From NCBI RefSeq assembly GCF_030409335.1, contig NZ_JAUFPN010000182.1, positions 1-64,000 of the forward strand: a DNA stretch of 64,000 nucleotides. The letters run 5' to 3'. This stretch comes from Paeniroseomonas aquatica. GTDB taxonomy: Bacteria > Pseudomonadota > Alphaproteobacteria > Acetobacterales > Acetobacteraceae. Position numbers and translations under genes: made by a program. The notes beneath the pieces are model-generated. The model was not told the DNA's origin. It did not search any database and saw only the letters and a program-made list of their open reading frames with translations. Below, piece after piece: positions 9,295 to 57,136 of this stretch (positions are counted from its first letter, which is position 1; each line of letters begins with the position of its first letter).

Positions 9295-10365
9295 ATGGAC
9301 AGCATCCTCCCCACGACCCCCCCCCCCACGACCTCCCCCACCGTGCCGGCCGACGGCATGGCCGAGCTCGACCGGCTGATGGCCCGCGGCGCCGCCTTCT
9401 TCGGCGCCCGCTACGCCCTGATGGGCGGGGCGATGAGCTGGGTGAGTGAGCGCAACCTGGTCGCCGCCCTGTCCAACGCCGGGGCCTTCGGCGTCATCGC
9501 CTGCGGCGCGATGGAGCCGGAGCGGCTGGCGCAGGAGATCGCCGGCACCCAGGCGCTGACCCAGCGGCCCTTCGGCGTGAACCTCATCACCATGCACCCC
9601 CGGCTGGAGCAGCTGGTGGATACCTGCCTCGAGGCCAAGGTCGGGCACATCGTCTTCGCCGGCGGCATCCCCTCCGGCGCCATCATCAAGAAGGCCAAGG
9701 ACGGCGGCGCCAAGGTGGTCTGCTTCGCCCCGGCGCTGGCGCTGGCCAAGAAGCTGGTGCGCTCCGGCGCCGATGCGCTGGTGATCGAGGGCTCCGAGGC
9801 CGGCGGGCATATCGGCCCGGTCTCGCTGAACGTGCTGGCGCAGGAGATCCTGCCGGCCATGGCCGAGCAGGTGCCGGTCTTCGTCGCCGGCGGCATCGGC
9901 CGGGGCGAGGCGATCCTGTCCTTCCTCCAGATGGGGGCGGCCGGCGTCCAGCTCGGCACCCGCTTCGTCTGCGCGACGGAAAGCATCGCCCATCCGCTGT
10001 TCAAGCGCGCCTTCCTGCGCGGCAATGCCCGGGACGCGGTGCCGACCCAGCAGATCGACGAGCGCTTCCCGGTCATCCCGGTGCGGGCGCTGGTCAATGC
10101 CGGGACCAAGCGCTTCATGGCGCACCAGGCCGAGGTGCTGGCGAAATTCCAGTCGGGCGAACTGACCAAGGAGGCGGCGCAGCTCGACATCGAGCATTTC
10201 TGGGCCGGTGCCCTCCGCCGCGCGGTGATCGACGGCGATGTGGAGAACGGCAGCCTCATGGCCGGCCAGTCCGTCGGCATGGTGGACCGGGAGGCCCCCG
10301 CCGCCGAGATCATCGCCGAACTCATCGGCCAGGCCGCCGCTGCCCTGGTCCGCCGGGCGGCGTGA
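9295..10365 (+). CDS. Nitronate monooxygenase / 2-nitropropane dioxygenase-like FMN enzyme
   Basis: Encodes 356 residues of an FMN-dependent TIM barrel. It has the characteristic motifs GGAMSWVS near the N-terminus, VIEGSEAGGHIGP (the phosphate-binding and GGH signature) and a final GAAGVQLGTRF strand. Family members oxidise alkyl nitronates or act as enoyl reductases, and the true substrate here cannot be read from sequence. The gene starts 4 bases after lysC stops, suggesting cotranscription. The first 20 residues are a Pro/Thr-rich extension, so a start at the Met about residue 22 (MAELDRLM) is also possible. Confidence 0.88.
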   Translation: MDSILPTTPPPTTSPTVPADGMAELDRLMARGAAFFGARYALMGGAMSWVSERNLVAALSNAGAFGVIACGAMEPERLAQEIAGTQALTQRPFGVNLITMHPRLEQLVDTCLEAKVGHIVFAGGIPSGAIIKKAKDGGAKVVCFAPALALAKKLVRSGADALVIEGSEAGGHIGPVSLNVLAQEILPAMAEQVPVFVAGGIGRGEAILSFLQMGAAGVQLGTRFVCATESIAHPLFKRAFLRGNARDAVPTQQIDERFPVIPVRALVNAGTKRFMAHQAEVLAKFQSGELTKEAAQLDIEHFWAGALRRAVIDGDVENGSLMAGQSVGMVDREAPAAEIIAELIGQAAAALVRRAA

Positions 10366-10515
10366 CACTTCGATGAAACCCGCTCGCCGTGCCGCGATCG
10401 GGCTCGCTGCCGCCCCGGCCGGTGGCGCAATAGACGGGACGTGCGCGCGGCCGCTTTGGCAAAGCCGCCCGCACTGCCATATTCAATCGCCACGACCCCT
10501 TGGGGAAACCAGCGC

Positions 10516-11658
10516 ATGAGCTATCGCCCCTACCAGATGATCACCCGGCGCAAGTCGCGCCAGATCCGGGTGGGCAAGGTCCTCGTCGGCGGCGACGCGC
10601 CGATCACGGTCCAGACCATGACCAACACCCCGACCGAGGATGCGGCGGCGACCATCGCCCAGATCCGCAAGTCGGAGGTCGCCGGCGTCGACATCGTCCG
10701 CGTCTCCTGCCCGACGCCCGAGAGCACGGCGGCGCTGGCCGAGATCGTGCGCGAGGTGAATGTCCCGATCGTCGCCGACATCCACTTCCACTACCGCCGC
10801 GCCATCGAGGCGGCCAAGGCCGGCGCCGCCTGCCTGCGGATCAACCCGGGCAATATCGGCAGCGCGGAACGCGTCAAGGAAGTGGTCAAGGCGGCTCGCG
10901 ACTACGGCTGCTCCATCCGCATCGGCGTCAACGCCGGCAGCCTCGAGAAGCACCTGCTGGAGAAGTACGGCGAGCCGAACCCGGAGGCGCTGGTCGAGAG
11001 CGCGCTCTGGCACGCCGACCACCTGCTGCAGAACGACTTCACCGAGTTCAAGATCAGCGTGAAGGCCTCCGACGTCTTCCTCGCCGCCGCCGCCTACCAG
11101 CAGCTCGCCGAGGTCTGCGACCACCCGCTGCACATCGGCATCACCGAGGCGGGGGGCAAGCGCACCGGCACGGTGAAGTCGGCGGTCGGCCTGGGCTCGC
11201 TGCTCTGGGCCGGCATCGGCGACACCATGCGCGTCTCGCTCTCCGCCGAGCCGGAGGAGGAGGTGCACGTCGGCTGGGAGATCCTGAAGTCGCTTGGCAT
11301 CCGCCACCGCGGGGTCAAGATCATCTCCTGCCCCTCCTGCGCCCGGCAGGGCTTCGACGTCATCCGCACGGTGGCGACGCTGGAGGACCGGCTGGCGCAT
11401 ATCGAGACGCCGGTGACCCTCTCCATCATCGGCTGCGTGGTCAACGGCCCGGGCGAGGCGCTCATGACCGACATCGGCCTGACCGGCGGCGGCGCCGGCC
11501 GGCATATGATCTATGCCGCCGGCAAGACCGACCACACCATCGACGAGGCCGCCATGGTCGACCACGTGGTCTCCCTGGTGGAGAAGAAGGTCGGCGAGAT
11601 CCAGGCCACCGAGGCGGCCGAGAAGGCCGCCCGGGACGCCCTCACCGTCGACGCCTGA
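10516..11658 (+). CDS. ispG: 4-hydroxy-3-methylbut-2-enyl-diphosphate synthase (flavodoxin)
   Basis: Encodes 380 residues. IspG uses a 4Fe-4S cluster to convert methylerythritol cyclodiphosphate into HMBPP in the non-mevalonate isoprenoid pathway. The N-terminal barrel has the QTMTNTPT and ADIHFHY blocks. The C-terminal cluster domain has CPSC and the later GCVVNGPGE cysteine. MSYRPYQM was taken as the start; an in-frame GTG at 10441 would add 25 residues of non-conserved type. Confidence 0.96.
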
Positions 11659-14736: not shown

Positions 14737-15797
14737 GGCCGGATCGCCACCTGGACCTGCATGTTGGTGCGCCGCTCCAGCGCCGCCCGGCCTTCGTCGG
14801 ACAGCGCCAGCCGCACCTCCACGGTGCGGGCATCGACCGCCGCCACCGGGTCGGTCCCGGCCTGGGTGGTGCGCCGCACCAGCCAGCCGATCTCCCGCAC
14901 CGTCGCGGCGTAGCGCCGCGGATCGCCCGGCACCGTCACCTCGGCGACGGCCCCCGGCCGCAGCCGCGGCAGGTCGGTCTCGTAGACATCGGCCACCACG
15001 TCCAGCCGGTCGAGGTCCGCCATCTCCAGCAGCCCCTCGCTGCCGACCTGGTCGCCCGGCCGGGCATGGACCTTGAGGATGGTCCCGGCGATCGGCGCCA
15101 TCACCCGGGCCAGCCGCGCATCCGCCCGCGCCTTGGCCACCCCGGCCTCGGCCATGGCGAGCTCCGCCTCGGCCACCGCCAGGTCCTCCGGCCGCGGCAC
15201 CAGCAGGCGCTGCAGGGTGGCGGCGGCCTCGGCCCGCTCGGCCGCCGCCCGCGCCGCGGCGAAGCGCGCCCGCTCCGCCGTCGCCTTGCCGCCGGCGCCC
15301 GAGGGCACCAGCGCCTCGGCCCGCTCGGCGTCCCGCCGCAGGCTGGCCTCGGCGAAGCGCAGGGCCTCGATCCGCGCCCGCTGCGCCTCGACCTCCTCCG
15401 GCCGGCCTGCGGCGCGGATCCGCGCCAGCGCGGCGCGGGACTGCGCGAGCGAGGCCTCGGCCTGGGCGATGGCGGCATCCTTCTGCGCGGCGTCGCCGAA
15501 CTCGGCGACCACCTGCCCGGCCGCGACCCGGTCGCCCTCGGCCACCAGCAGCCGGTCCAGCCGGCTGACGGACAGCCCGCCGGGCTGGTTCAGGGTGCGG
15601 ATGCGCCCGGCCGGCTCCACCCGCCCCAAGGCACCGACCCCGGGGGCACCGACCCCTGGGGCACCGACCCCTGGGGCATCATCCGCCGCCGCGGCGGCCA
15701 CCGGCCCGGCCGGCCGGCCGCGGGACCGCTCCCAGGCCAGGGCGCCCAGGCCCCCCGCCAGCGCCAGGCCGACCAGGGCCCAGCCGACCGGTTTCAC
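14733..15797 (-). CDS. devB: DevB-type periplasmic adaptor (HlyD/MFP family)
   Basis: Encodes 354 residues from a GTG start. An N-terminal membrane anchor (about 4-20) is followed by the typical GRVEPAGRI opening, a lipoyl half-motif, a long Ala/Glu/Arg coiled-coil hairpin (about 105-205) and a beta-barrel domain. It links the DevC permease to an outer-membrane channel. I place the start at GTG 15797 because it precedes the anchor and gives a 4-base overlap with the upstream gene. Residues about 41-55 are a short tandem repeat (GVGAP). Confidence 0.88.
   Translation of the reverse strand: MKPVGWALVGLALAGGLGALAWERSRGRPAGPVAAAAADDAPGVGAPGVGAPGVGALGRVEPAGRIRTLNQPGGLSVSRLDRLLVAEGDRVAAGQVVAEFGDAAQKDAAIAQAEASLAQSRAALARIRAAGRPEEVEAQRARIEALRFAEASLRRDAERAEALVPSGAGGKATAERARFAAARAAAERAEAAATLQRLLVPRPEDLAVAEAELAMAEAGVAKARADARLARVMAPIAGTILKVHARPGDQVGSEGLLEMADLDRLDVVADVYETDLPRLRPGAVAEVTVPGDPRRYAATVREIGWLVRRTTQAGTDPVAAVDARTVEVRLALSDEGRAALERRTNMQVQVAIRP
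15631..15675 (+). repeat. 15-bp tandem repeat inside devB
   Basis: Three head-to-tail copies of GCACCGACCCCTGGG, the first with one change, lie in frame in devB and encode repeated Gly-Val-Gly-Ala-Pro units just after the membrane anchor. Copy number could vary by slippage without breaking the frame, changing only linker length. Confidence 0.85.
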
Positions 15798-53435: not shown

Positions 53436-55075
53436 CAGCCGGCGACGCGGCCCTTGTAGCGGGTCTTGAGGTCGGCCTTCCACAGCTTGCCGGTCGCGGT
53501 ATGCGGCAGGCTCTCGACGAACTCCACCGCATCGGGGATCCACCACTTGGCCACCTTGCCCTCGTAGTAGGCGAGGATCTCCTCGGCGGTCGGCGCCATG
53601 CCGGGCTTCGGCTGGACCAGCAGCAGGGGGCGCTCGTCCCACTTCGGATGGGCCATGGCGATGACCGCCGCCTCCTGCACCGCGGGGTGGCCCATGATCA
53701 GGTTCTCGAGGGTGATGGAGCTGATCCACTCGCCCCCCGATTTGATGACATCCTTGGCGCGGTCGACGATCTCGATGCAGCCGAGCTCGTCCATGGTGAC
53801 GACGTCGCCGGTGCGGAACCAGCCGTCCGCGGTGAAGGCGGCATCGCCGGGGCGGTTGAAATAGGCCGCGGCCGCCCAGGGGCCGCGGACTTCCAGCTCG
53901 CCGAAGGCGGTGCCGTCGTGGGGGATCTCCGCCCCGGCGCCGTCGCGGATGCGGAGTTCCACCCCGAACAGCGGGCGGCCCTGCTTGCGGGCGTAATCGA
54001 GGAAGCGGTCCTCGTCCCAGCCCGCGTTCTCCGGCTTGCGGGCATTGGTGGTGCCGAGCGGGCTGATCTCGGTCATGCCCCAGGCATGCAGGATGGAGAC
54101 GCCGTATTCCTTGAGGAAGCCGGCATTGATCGCGGTCGGCAGGGCGGTGCCGCCGACCACCAGCCGCGGCGGGGCGGCGAAGCGGCGGCCGGGCTCGGCC
54201 CGCAGCCAGTTCAGCAGCGCGGTCCAGATGGTCGGCACCCCGGCGGAGAAGGTGACGCCCTCCTCCTCGATCAGCCGGTGGAGGCTGGCGGGGTCGAGCT
54301 TCGCGCCGGGCAGGACGAGCGAGGCCCCGGCGGCGGCGGCCGAGTAGGGGATGCCCCAGGCATTCACATGGAACATCGGCACGACCGGCATCACCACATC
54401 GGCGGCGCCGATCGCGAAGCAGTCCTTCTGCAAGGTGCTGATGGCGTGGATGACGGTGCTGCGGTGGCTGTAGAGCACGCCCTTCGGCTCGCCGGTGGTG
54501 CCGGAGGTGTAGCAGAGCGAGGAGGCGCTGCGCTCGTCCAGCTCCGGCCAGTCGAACTGCGTGGGCTGGCCGGCGATGAGGCTTTCCTGGGCCAGCAGCT
54601 CGAAGCGGCCGCGCAGCGGGCAGTCGGCGGGGATATCGGCCTCGCTGCCCATGACGATGATGGCGCGGAGGCTGGGCGGCAGCTGGTCCGCCAGGGCCGC
54701 GGCGCCGGCCAGCAGGGTCGGGTCGACCAGCAGGTGGGTGTCCTCGGCGTCCGCCAGGATGAAGGCGATCTGGCCGGGGAAGAGGCGCGGATTCACGGTG
54801 TGCAGCACCGCGCCCATGGCGGAGATGCCGTAGTAGGCTTCCAGGTGGTGGTGCTCGTTCCAGGCGAGGGTCGCGATGCGCTCGCCGCGTTGCACGCCGC
54901 GCGCCGCCAAGGCATGGGCGAGCTGGGCGGCGCGGGCGGCGATCTCGGGCCAGCTGTGGCGCACCAGGCTGCCGTCGGGGCGGGCGGAGACGATCCTGGA
55001 GCCGGCGTGGTTGCGGGCGGCGTGATCCAGGAGGCTGGAGATTAGCAGCGGTCGGTCCTGCATCAGGCCCAGCAT
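53435..55075 (-). CDS. Acyl-CoA ligase (AMP-binding, long-chain fatty-acid type)
   Basis: Encodes 546 residues. The P-loop [12 protein letters not shown] (about 185-197), the adenylate motif [13 protein letters not shown] (about 308-320) and the D-G-W-F-x-T-G-D block followed by [12 protein letters not shown] are all present. It activates a fatty or other carboxylic acid as an acyl-CoA. I chose ATG 55075, preceded by GGGGAG nine bases upstream, over the longer frame. An unusual 10-bp repeat array lies 75-120 bases upstream of its start. Confidence 0.92.
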
Positions 55076-55150
55076 CTCGGTTGTCTCCCCGTTGGTGTTG
55101 GCCGGAGTTTGCGGGGGCGCGGGGGTGGCGGCAAGGGCGCGCTGGGGTGG

Positions 55151-55195
55151 CTCAATTCCACTCAATTCGGCTCAATTCCGCTCAATTCCTCTCAA
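55151..55195 (+). repeat. 10-bp tandem repeat array upstream of the acyl-CoA ligase
   Basis: CTCAATTC followed by two variable bases is repeated four times (55151-55190) and begins a fifth time as CTCAA (55191-55195). The 10-bp period puts the AATT cores on the same face of the helix. An inverted copy GAATTGAG lies at 55247-55254, in the AT-rich part of the same gap. The array is on the promoter side of the minus-strand ligase gene. Confidence 0.9.
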
Positions 55196-55246
55196 ATGGT
55201 GGGGCCTACGCGTCTGATTTCATTGATAAAAATGCCGGAAATTTTA

Positions 55247-55254
55247 GAATTGAG
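55247..55254 (+). promoter_or_regulatory. Inverted copy of the repeat core
   Basis: GAATTGAG is the reverse complement of the CTCAATTC core repeated four times at 55151-55190. It lies about 56 bases away in the same intergenic gap and may be a distal binding site for the same protein. Confidence 0.55.
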
Positions 55255-55287
55255 CGGTTGAGGGCGGGGACCCGGCCCGCCTCGCCC

Positions 55288-55311: not shown

Positions 55312-55361
55312 ATAGCAGCCGGGGGGGCCGGATGTAAAGAATATCGTCCTATCTGTCGCCG

Positions 55362-56993
55362 TCACCCCGCCCGCAGGAAGGCCGCCGCCCGCTCGCCGAT
55401 CATCAGCGCCGCCGGCTGGATGTTGGAGGAGGGCACCAGCGGCATGACGCTGGCATCCGCCACCATCAGCCCCTCGATCCCCTTCAGCCGCAGGCGCGGG
55501 TCGACCGGCGCCATGGCGTCGTCGCCCATCCGGGCGGTGCCGCAGGGGTGGTAGACGGTGCCGCCGTCGCGGCGGATATGGGCAAGGATCTCCTCGTCCG
55601 TATGGGCCTGCGGGCCGGGGGTGAGTTCTTCCTCGATCAGCGCCGCCAGCGGGCCCTGCTGCGCCAGGCGGCGGGCATATTTCACGCCCTCGACCATCAG
55701 CCGCTGGTCGTGCGCGGCCTCCAGGTAATTGGCGCGGATCACCGGCTTGTCGTCCGGGTCGGCGCTGCGGAGGGAGATGGTGCCGCGGCTGTCGGGGCGG
55801 CACTGGCAGGCGCTGAACATGAAGCCGGGCCAGGGGTCCGGGCCATCCTCGTAGGTGGTGACGGTGAAATTGACGAACAGGTACTGCATGTCCGGCTCCT
55901 CGGCGCCGGGCAGGACGCGGGCGAAGAGGTTGGCCTCCGCCGCGCCGATGGACATCGGGCCGCGGCGGTCGAAGGCGTAGCGGGCGGCCATGCGCAGCTT
56001 GCCGAAGGGGCCGCGGACCAGCTCATTCACCGTGCCGCAGGGCTTCACCCGGTAGCGCATGCGCTGGAGGAAATGATCCTGCAGGTTCTGGCCGACGCCG
56101 GGGCTGTGGAGGCGGGTCTCGATCCCGTGCTCGGCCAGCTGCGCGCCGTCGCCGATGCCGGACAGCATCAGGATCTGCGGCGTGCCGATGGCCCCGGCCG
56201 AAAGCACCACCTGGCGGCGGGCTTCCCAGCGCTCGAGGCCCGCCGGGCCGCGGACCAGGGCGCCGGTGCAGCGGTTGCCGTCGAAGAGCAGGCGCTGGAT
56301 GGTGCGCTCCGGCATGATGCGGAGGTTCGCCCGGCCGCGCGCGGGCTTGAGGAACATGTCGCCGGAATGGCTGCGGAAGCCGCCCTTGACGTTCATCTGC
56401 ATCGGCCCGGCGCCCTCGTGCCAGGCGCCGTTGAAGTCCTTCACCCGTTGCTGGCCCATGGCCAGCGCCGCCGCGACGAAGGCCTGGGCGCCGGGGGAGG
56501 AATGGCGGGCCTCGGAGGCATGGATCGGCCCGTCGGTGCCGCGCTCCTCCGAGGGCTCGCCCGACCAGGTCTCCATCCGCTTGAAATAGGGCAGCACGTC
56601 GTCATAGGCCCAGCCGCGGGCGCCGGACTGCGCCCAGCGGTCGTAGTCGCGCGGTGACCCCCGCAGGAAGACCAGCCCGTTCACCGCGCCCGAGCCGCCG
56701 ACCACCTTGCCGCGCGGCCAGTGGATGCTGCGCCCGTCGAGGCCGGGCTCGGCCTCGGTGTGGTAGCGCCAGTCGTACCTGCCGGAGGCATAGAGCCGGG
56801 CGAAGCCGGCGGGGATGCGGATCCAGGGGTCGCGCCAGGCGGCGGGCCCGGCCTCGATGAGGGCGACCTGGGTGCTGCTGTCCTCCGACAGCCGGGCGGC
56901 GATGACGCAGCCGGCGGAGCCGGCGCCGAGCACCAGCACGTCGGTGGTGTGGACGCTGGCCGTGGCCGCGGCCTGTTGGGCGCCGTCGGGCAT
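55362..56993 (-). CDS. GMC family oxidoreductase (second copy)
   Basis: Encodes 543 residues. FAD motif [15 protein letters not shown] (about 20-34), signature PRGKVVGGSGAVNGL (about 93-107), and C-terminal HPCGTARMG. The family oxidises alcohols; the substrate is unknown. It is related to the GMC enzyme at 28.9-30.5 kb but clearly diverged. It precedes the acyl-CoA ligase on the same strand, with the repeat array between them. Confidence 0.92.
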   Translation of the reverse strand: MPDGAQQAAATASVHTTDVLVLGAGSAGCVIAARLSEDSSTQVALIEAGPAAWRDPWIRIPAGFARLYASGRYDWRYHTEAEPGLDGRSIHWPRGKVVGGSGAVNGLVFLRGSPRDYDRWAQSGARGWAYDDVLPYFKRMETWSGEPSEERGTDGPIHASEARHSSPGAQAFVAAALAMGQQRVKDFNGAWHEGAGPMQMNVKGGFRSHSGDMFLKPARGRANLRIMPERTIQRLLFDGNRCTGALVRGPAGLERWEARRQVVLSAGAIGTPQILMLSGIGDGAQLAEHGIETRLHSPGVGQNLQDHFLQRMRYRVKPCGTVNELVRGPFGKLRMAARYAFDRRGPMSIGAAEANLFARVLPGAEEPDMQYLFVNFTVTTYEDGPDPWPGFMFSACQCRPDSRGTISLRSADPDDKPVIRANYLEAAHDQRLMVEGVKYARRLAQQGPLAALIEEELTPGPQAHTDEEILAHIRRDGGTVYHPCGTARMGDDAMAPVDPRLRLKGIEGLMVADASVMPLVPSSNIQPAALMIGERAAAFLRAG

Positions 56994-57136
56994 GGGTTTC
57001 CTCCGGTGATTTTGCCGAAGTCTGGCATGCGCCAGGGCGGGGGCGAAGGGTGGGGGCGAAGGGCGGGCGCGCGATTCCCGTTTACAGGAACATATACCTA
57101 ATGTTACGGTACGGCACCATGTTGCGGGAGCCGGCC

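Follow-up and report, generated by a model that had tools for sequence, protein, structure and literature searches.

A dispersed, helically phased intergenic element at gene ends in Paeniroseomonas aquatica and related species

The stretch of Paeniroseomonas aquatica DNA analysed here (the window, 64,000 nucleotides) carries, between the start of an acyl-CoA ligase gene and the stop codon of a GMC oxidoreductase gene, four exact CTCAATTC cores on the plus strand at positions 55151, 55161, 55171 and 55181, a spacing of 10 bp, followed by a partial fifth unit, CTCAAATG, at 55191. An exact inverted CTCAATTC copy at 55247-55254 belongs to a run of inverted units: TTTTAG, TTGAG and a second TTGAG at 55258-55262. 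The features of the locus are as follows.

53438-55075, minus strand: acyl-CoA ligase (AMP-binding, PF00501/PF13193), 546 aa, its ATG 76 bp to the left of the array
55106-55135, minus strand: possible weak ligase promoter, CTTGCC then CAAACT, between the array and the ATG, read by eye
55151-55198, plus strand: left array of four CTCAATTC units and the partial CTCAAATG, in a 10-bp register common to other copies
55207-55219, plus strand: central IHF-like block TACGCGTCTGATT, 7/9 by sequence score to YAA-N4-TTGATW (the reverse complement of WATCAA-N4-TTR)
55240-55262, minus strand: right inverted units, AATTTTAGAATTGAG (55240-55254) and TTGAG (55258-55262)
55342-55353, minus strand: promoter-like TATAGGAATATA motif, 9/12 here (GATAGGACGATA), pointing into the element
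55362-56993, minus strand: GMC oxidoreductase (PF00732/PF05199), whose stop codon is the promoter-side limit of the element

Direct reading and Tandem Repeats Finder (period 10, 4.6 copies, 55150-55195) bear out a preliminary description of this DNA, which had reported a phased array with a partial fifth unit and an inverted copy, and had judged its origin by chance very unlikely. The window holds five exact CTCAATTC matches in all, every one in the array or the inverted copy, whereas 100 dinucleotide shuffles of the window give a mean of 0.57 and a maximum of 3, and none reaches five. The promoter-like sequence of the window copy lacks a CTTGC -35 and has only the -10-like part (9/12). A consensus scan of the same copy finds no terminator and a single promoter-like site, which reads rightward and spans the right units (TTGATA-N16-TAGAAT, 55223-55250, 10/12; shuffles mean 0.1). 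Elsewhere in the window, TACAGGAACATATACCTA at 57083-57100 resembles the promoter motif of the element and lies upstream of the GMC oxidoreductase gene with no array beside it, and a tandem repeat of period 15 (3.3 copies) occupies 15630-15678.

A search of the genome for further CTCAATTC arrays shows that the window array is not unique. In the whole genome (6.5 Mb, 313 contigs), CTCAATTCNNCTCAATTC with at most two mismatches matches 66 places (36 forward, 30 reverse), against none for the same pattern read backwards. A first model, built from 16 of the 24 own-genome copies (alignment A1), gives 24 matches at E <= 0.01 in this genome (G000), of which the window copy is one; six are partial or shifted (L040, L041, L042, L048, L049 and L050), and L052 was dropped as a false match. 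The genome has 12 exact occurrences of the 15-mer AATTTTAGAATTGAG, every one of them within one of the 24 copies. The array is thus one part of a dispersed element of about 200 bases, with about two dozen copies in the genome that lie mostly at the ends of unrelated genes; the distance from the first unit to the promoter -35 is 160-227 bp in the 16 copies measured (G000 and G002 copies whose promoter scores at least 9).

Related species carry the element as well. A second model, built from 37 of 55 copies from six species (alignment A3) and used at E <= 0.001, gives 20 matches (19 places) in G000, 22 in G002, 29 in G003, 16 in G005, 21 in G006 and 11 in the 75%-complete genome of G007, with three in G001 and one in G004. 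Six of the eight species of the genus therefore have 11-29 matches and the other two have 3 and 1, while 32 genomes outside the genus have none at this threshold. For later counts we use a held-out set, 52 of the 65 copies of G002, G003, G005 and G006 outside the second model, the 13 left out being mostly the weakest. These 52 fall into 27 flank clusters, 15 common to earlier copies and 12 unrelated to them; many are one locus in several species, so the held-out copies are not independent. Two full units followed by CTCAA match 13 stretches in other taxa in genome_contigs, one match each and one of them an Acetobacter record, and no record in viral_contigs, near records possibly being omitted from both searches. 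A literature search among open-access papers returned work on related elements and nothing further on the topic.

These copies bear on the preliminary description of the array as a multi-site operator or curved-DNA element on the promoter side of the ligase operon. The exact 10-bp register upholds the helically phased, multi-site part of that proposal; the tie to the ligase finds no support. An operator of the ligase operon fits the position of the array, which starts 76 bp upstream of the ATG, but 23 other copies adjoin unrelated genes, mostly at gene ends, and the 420 bp upstream of the ligase show no element in six of the seven other species of the genus, nor does the first model match at those six loci. 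We reject this candidate as highly improbable, and the window copy would lie upstream of the ligase only through local gene order. The preliminary description had named absence of the array, or random variation in its number, among close relatives as evidence against it, and this is half borne out: the only relative with a copy in the ligase region (G007) has a shorter array, but array length is species-specific, not random.

Alignment of the copies reveals a regular anatomy. With the centre set at zero, left YTCAA units run from -16 to -66 in a strict 10-bp register: in G000 they occupy -16, -26, -36, -46, -56 and -66 in 16, 19, 19, 18, 12 and 5 of 22 copies, and the only off-register position with four copies across species is -37 (2/22 in G000). 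These register counts come from 55 copies (L049 without an aligned centre, L050 dropped), those of other species having been recovered with a G000-based model that may favour G000-like ones. In G002, units at -26 and -36 are each present in 11/12 copies, with an inverted unit at -16 in 7/12. The exact register is seen in the own genome, G002 and part of G007, and the mean number of left units in register is 4.0 in G000, 2.25 in G002, 1.6 in G007 and 0.2-0.5 in the others, G003, G005 and G006 copies being mostly without a left array. On the right, all six species have inverted units near +35/36 and +43, and five have one at +51. In most aligned copies the distances separating the left units, the centre and the right units differ by just a few bases; the sequence between the motifs is unrelated. 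Such kept spacing combined with free intervening sequence points to DNA geometry, and hence to a protein complex.

The centre offers a candidate for one component of such a complex. The IHF consensus is WATCAANNNNTTR, and the centre resembles its reverse complement with a mean score of 7.35/9 against 2.89 for shuffled sequence, over the 57 of 62 rows that have a full centre (a few loci contribute two rows). The score is at least 8/9 in 26 of these 57 home-genus rows, as a sequence match only, and the window block, at 7/9, is near the family mean. The background is 48 matches in 599,262 positions, the cores themselves included; in the held-out copies the enrichment arises partly by construction, because the model contains this block. 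IHF would be the natural candidate for bending the centre.

AT periodicity is also pronounced, with a value of 2.0 at 10.5 bp in own-genome copies against a shuffle maximum of 0.42 (L050, L040, L041, L042 and L048 left out). A period of about 10.5 bp that extends for some 120 bp, together with placement at gene ends, could be explained by a strong site for gyrase or DNA topology that is functionally analogous to BIME-2, with gyrase wrapped by phased AT/GC steps on the downstream side of transcribed genes. In E. coli, the gyrase motif shows phased GC variation, and its sites are found in BIME-2 and downstream of transcribed loci (PMC6379681). The same paper reports gyrase sites as negatively correlated with IHF sites (PMC6379681), and a degenerate gyrase motif falls far short of the specificity of the YTCAA units and the exact AATTTTAGAATTGAG; in the same core of G002 and G007, moreover, the periodicity is weaker, though still above shuffles. 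We regard this explanation as distinctly unlikely.

A further recurrent component is a promoter-like sequence, CTTGC-N18-TATAGGAATATA, that points inwards from the right end. At a score of at least 9/12 it is present in 33/52 held-out copies versus 2/208 controls (6/10 in G002, 13/20 in G003, 7/12 in G005 and 7/10 in G006), and in 8 of the 12 flank clusters unrelated to earlier copies. In the first set, which is the 55 copies minus L050, it is found in 25/54 copies versus 5, 1, 0 and 5 of 54 in four controls. Alignment on TATAGGAATATA alone lets CTTGC emerge 20-24 bases upstream, and this -35 is seen in both copy sets though it lies outside the alignment criterion. By itself TATAGGAATATA is unspecific, with 40 places at up to two mismatches versus 25 for the backward pattern. 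At one copy, L032, the right units lie within a rightward TTGACA-N17-TTTTAT ahead of a small gene of 78 aa.

An inward promoter of this frequency raises the possibility of a family of small non-coding RNA genes, in which the right-end promoter would drive an RNA through the inverted units, the centre and the array, running in many cases antisense to where the array-side gene ends. The distance from promoter to centre, mostly 75-94 bp among the 26 rows listed (outliers 120 and 173), is consistent with this, as is the presence of the element in tandem and divergent contexts too. Other observations speak against it. In the five sources searched (window, L044, L046, L047 and L053), Rfam gives no match to the element at gathering score, and the window region has none to it even at E <= 5. 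Although some single copies fold well at the centre, a central RNA hairpin was rejected since over 55 copies it is no better than swapped halves (-10.4 vs -9.8 kcal/mol, p = 0.30). The array and the inverted units can pair, yet double changes in this long-range stem are found in 0/8 pairs; a T-run follows the array in 1/18 copies, and a fixed 10-bp DNA register is not needed by an RNA. A small-RNA family is on balance unlikely, though it is a real contender. Separately, the Rfam sRNA CC2171 (RF01867, 87.2 bits) lies at L047:4043-4208 on the minus strand, directly before the array side of the C114 copy.

Some of the evidence on this point comes from a second genus. The first model, run with stricter filters on 249 genomes of the family, finds weak matches in two genomes from beyond the genus, G130 and G221, and had earlier given one in G017; those in G130 and G017 are AT-rich or of low complexity and were judged by eye to be chance. 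The G221 match combines a CTCAATTC unit with three inverted units at a spacing of 8 bases. Among five genomes of its genus searched at E <= 0.01, G221 has six matches and G267 four, and three genomes have none. In these ten copies (L315-L324), TATAGGAATATA scores at least 9/12 in eight and 11 in five, although the model used for them does not contain TATAGGAATATA. A clear IHF match is uncommon in their centres, as read by eye; instead, CTGAGTCCG is exact in the centre of 8/10, beside the left unit. This CTGAGTCCG block was not seen in home-genus copies. The second genus thus keeps the promoter and right units around a different central block, which weakens the IHF step and favours a small RNA. 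Given the array-poor copies of G003, G005 and G006 and the second-genus centres, the long array is not universal, and nor is the IHF block.

We further note that the element occupies a characteristic genomic position. In G000, with genes called by a simple codon score, 11 of the 24 copies have convergent neighbours (for one of them the right gene is 1.9 kb away), nine have tandem and three have divergent neighbours, and the remaining copy has no left gene on its contig. Among the 52 held-out copies, 21 are convergent, 28 tandem and 3 divergent, versus 14, 27 and 41 of 82 background gaps of at least 100 bp drawn from the same loci; divergent gaps are avoided by the element. No held-out copy lies within a called gene, and 49/52 face at least one gene end. 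This avoidance of divergent gaps, together with flanking proteins that have no common theme (miscellaneous Pfam matches in 36 of the 40 scanned, out of 47), leaves the targets with neither the shared function nor the gene starts of a regulon operator. At one copy, L220 (C84) at 9960-10720, a response-regulator gene separates the IHF-like block from a TATAGG-like motif, and the element is intact in the G002 orthologue. A rearrangement hot spot was also considered: junctions are broken in 6/10 tests with the element versus 14/120 elsewhere, where one junction can be tested from both sides, and among convergent junctions in 4/6 with the element and 3/7 without. Orientation may explain these breaks, and this candidate was set aside.

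Placement after genes on both sides would also suit a bidirectional Rho-dependent terminator, in which each strand would carry, past the gene, regularly spaced units rich in C and poor in G. Base composition partly agrees: on the inward strand of 18 own-genome copies the array has C 0.34 vs G 0.16 and the right units C 0.33 vs G 0.15, the right units of the 52 held-out copies have C 0.37 vs G 0.09, and T-runs are few. The held-out left side, with C 0.27 vs G 0.32, shows no C excess, and Rho needs neither fixed helical spacing nor an IHF-like site, which makes this explanation quite improbable.

Comparison of individual loci between species indicates both shared positions and variable presence. 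Eleven of 23 G000 copies have at least one flank in common with a copy recovered from another species, and for three of them both flanks clearly match. At the IspDF end, inspection by eye shows the element or what is left of it in all seven genomes with that protein, decayed in G001, and the models match it in G000, G003 and G006. The LpxB end has an element in G000 and G002, reduced remnants in G003, G005 and G006, and none seen in G001 and G004; in G007 (L167) the element follows LpxB in the orientation opposite to that in G000, promoter side first. Between an AsnC/threonine dehydratase-like pair, G000 has an element and G002 and G005 are empty, while in G001, G003, G004 and G006 the downstream sequence is different and none was seen. 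Dispersed copies, clean empty sites, reduced remnants and patchy presence among species and in the second genus recall a MITE-like miniature mobile element, now decaying, whose binding arrays and IHF site would serve as its ends. Flanks give no target duplication signal (5.56 vs 5.47 for swapped flanks, 16 copies), however, the inter-motif sequence is unrelated while motifs and spacing are kept, and 11/23 positions are common to species. A mobile origin is accordingly more improbable still than termination by Rho.

Several known systems share parts of this plan. BOX elements of Streptococcus pneumoniae are modular with a variable number of internal repeats; the modular plan is alike, whereas repeat size and sequence differ, and the centre here is IHF-like. 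Lambda attL has 10-bp direct arm sites, an IHF site and then further sites, an order that the element follows with its direct 10-bp units, IHF-like site and further units. Its far (right) units, by contrast, all have the same direction and form no inverted core pair, and no Pfam match to a recombinase turns up in the 40 flanking proteins scanned, 36 of which have any match. Integron attC boxes, compared by eye only, were rejected. The BIMEs of enterobacteria are intergenic composites of inverted units, RIP and RIB being their IHF-containing forms, and like these the element is intergenic at gene ends; its units, in contrast, are short YTCAA motifs. BIME-2 is bound by gyrase (PMC6379681). Correia/NEMIS repeats of Neisseria are likewise small, dispersed and intergenic, and the 155-bp form is described as containing an IHF site and putative promoters (PMC2229807). 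Here, there is no target duplication signal and no consistent central hairpin, the arrays are phased at 10 bp, and no sequence relation is apparent. The plan of the element is closest to Correia elements and IHF-linked BIMEs, and we do not claim membership of either.

On the present sequence evidence, we tentatively favour a bent nucleoprotein element at gene ends, closely followed by the small-RNA gene family. In the favoured reading, the array would be the left arm of the dispersed intergenic element. IHF would bend the centre, and a putative sequence-specific protein would bind the phased array and the inverted units together, so that a single nucleoprotein complex would form at gene 3' ends, in many cases where two genes converge. 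Its role would most likely lie in DNA topology or in separating converging transcription, with the promoter under the control of the complex. A more specific and more speculative proposal, which we think somewhat less probable than the small RNA, is a new class of chromosomal element at gene ends, present in two genera or more. In it, a bent complex with an inward promoter would separate convergent genes, a putative protein would read the phased units, and unit sequence and number may shift in concert at all the loci of one species because they track that protein.

To our knowledge, composite gene-end repeats such as BIMEs have no agreed role. The family described here would offer a clean test: its geometry is tight, a genome has about 20 copies, sister species share some positions and naturally lack others, and array length is particular to the species. 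Work on it could tell whether the role of such elements is to part convergent transcription, to organise DNA topology or to make RNA, and could reveal a new DNA-binding protein.
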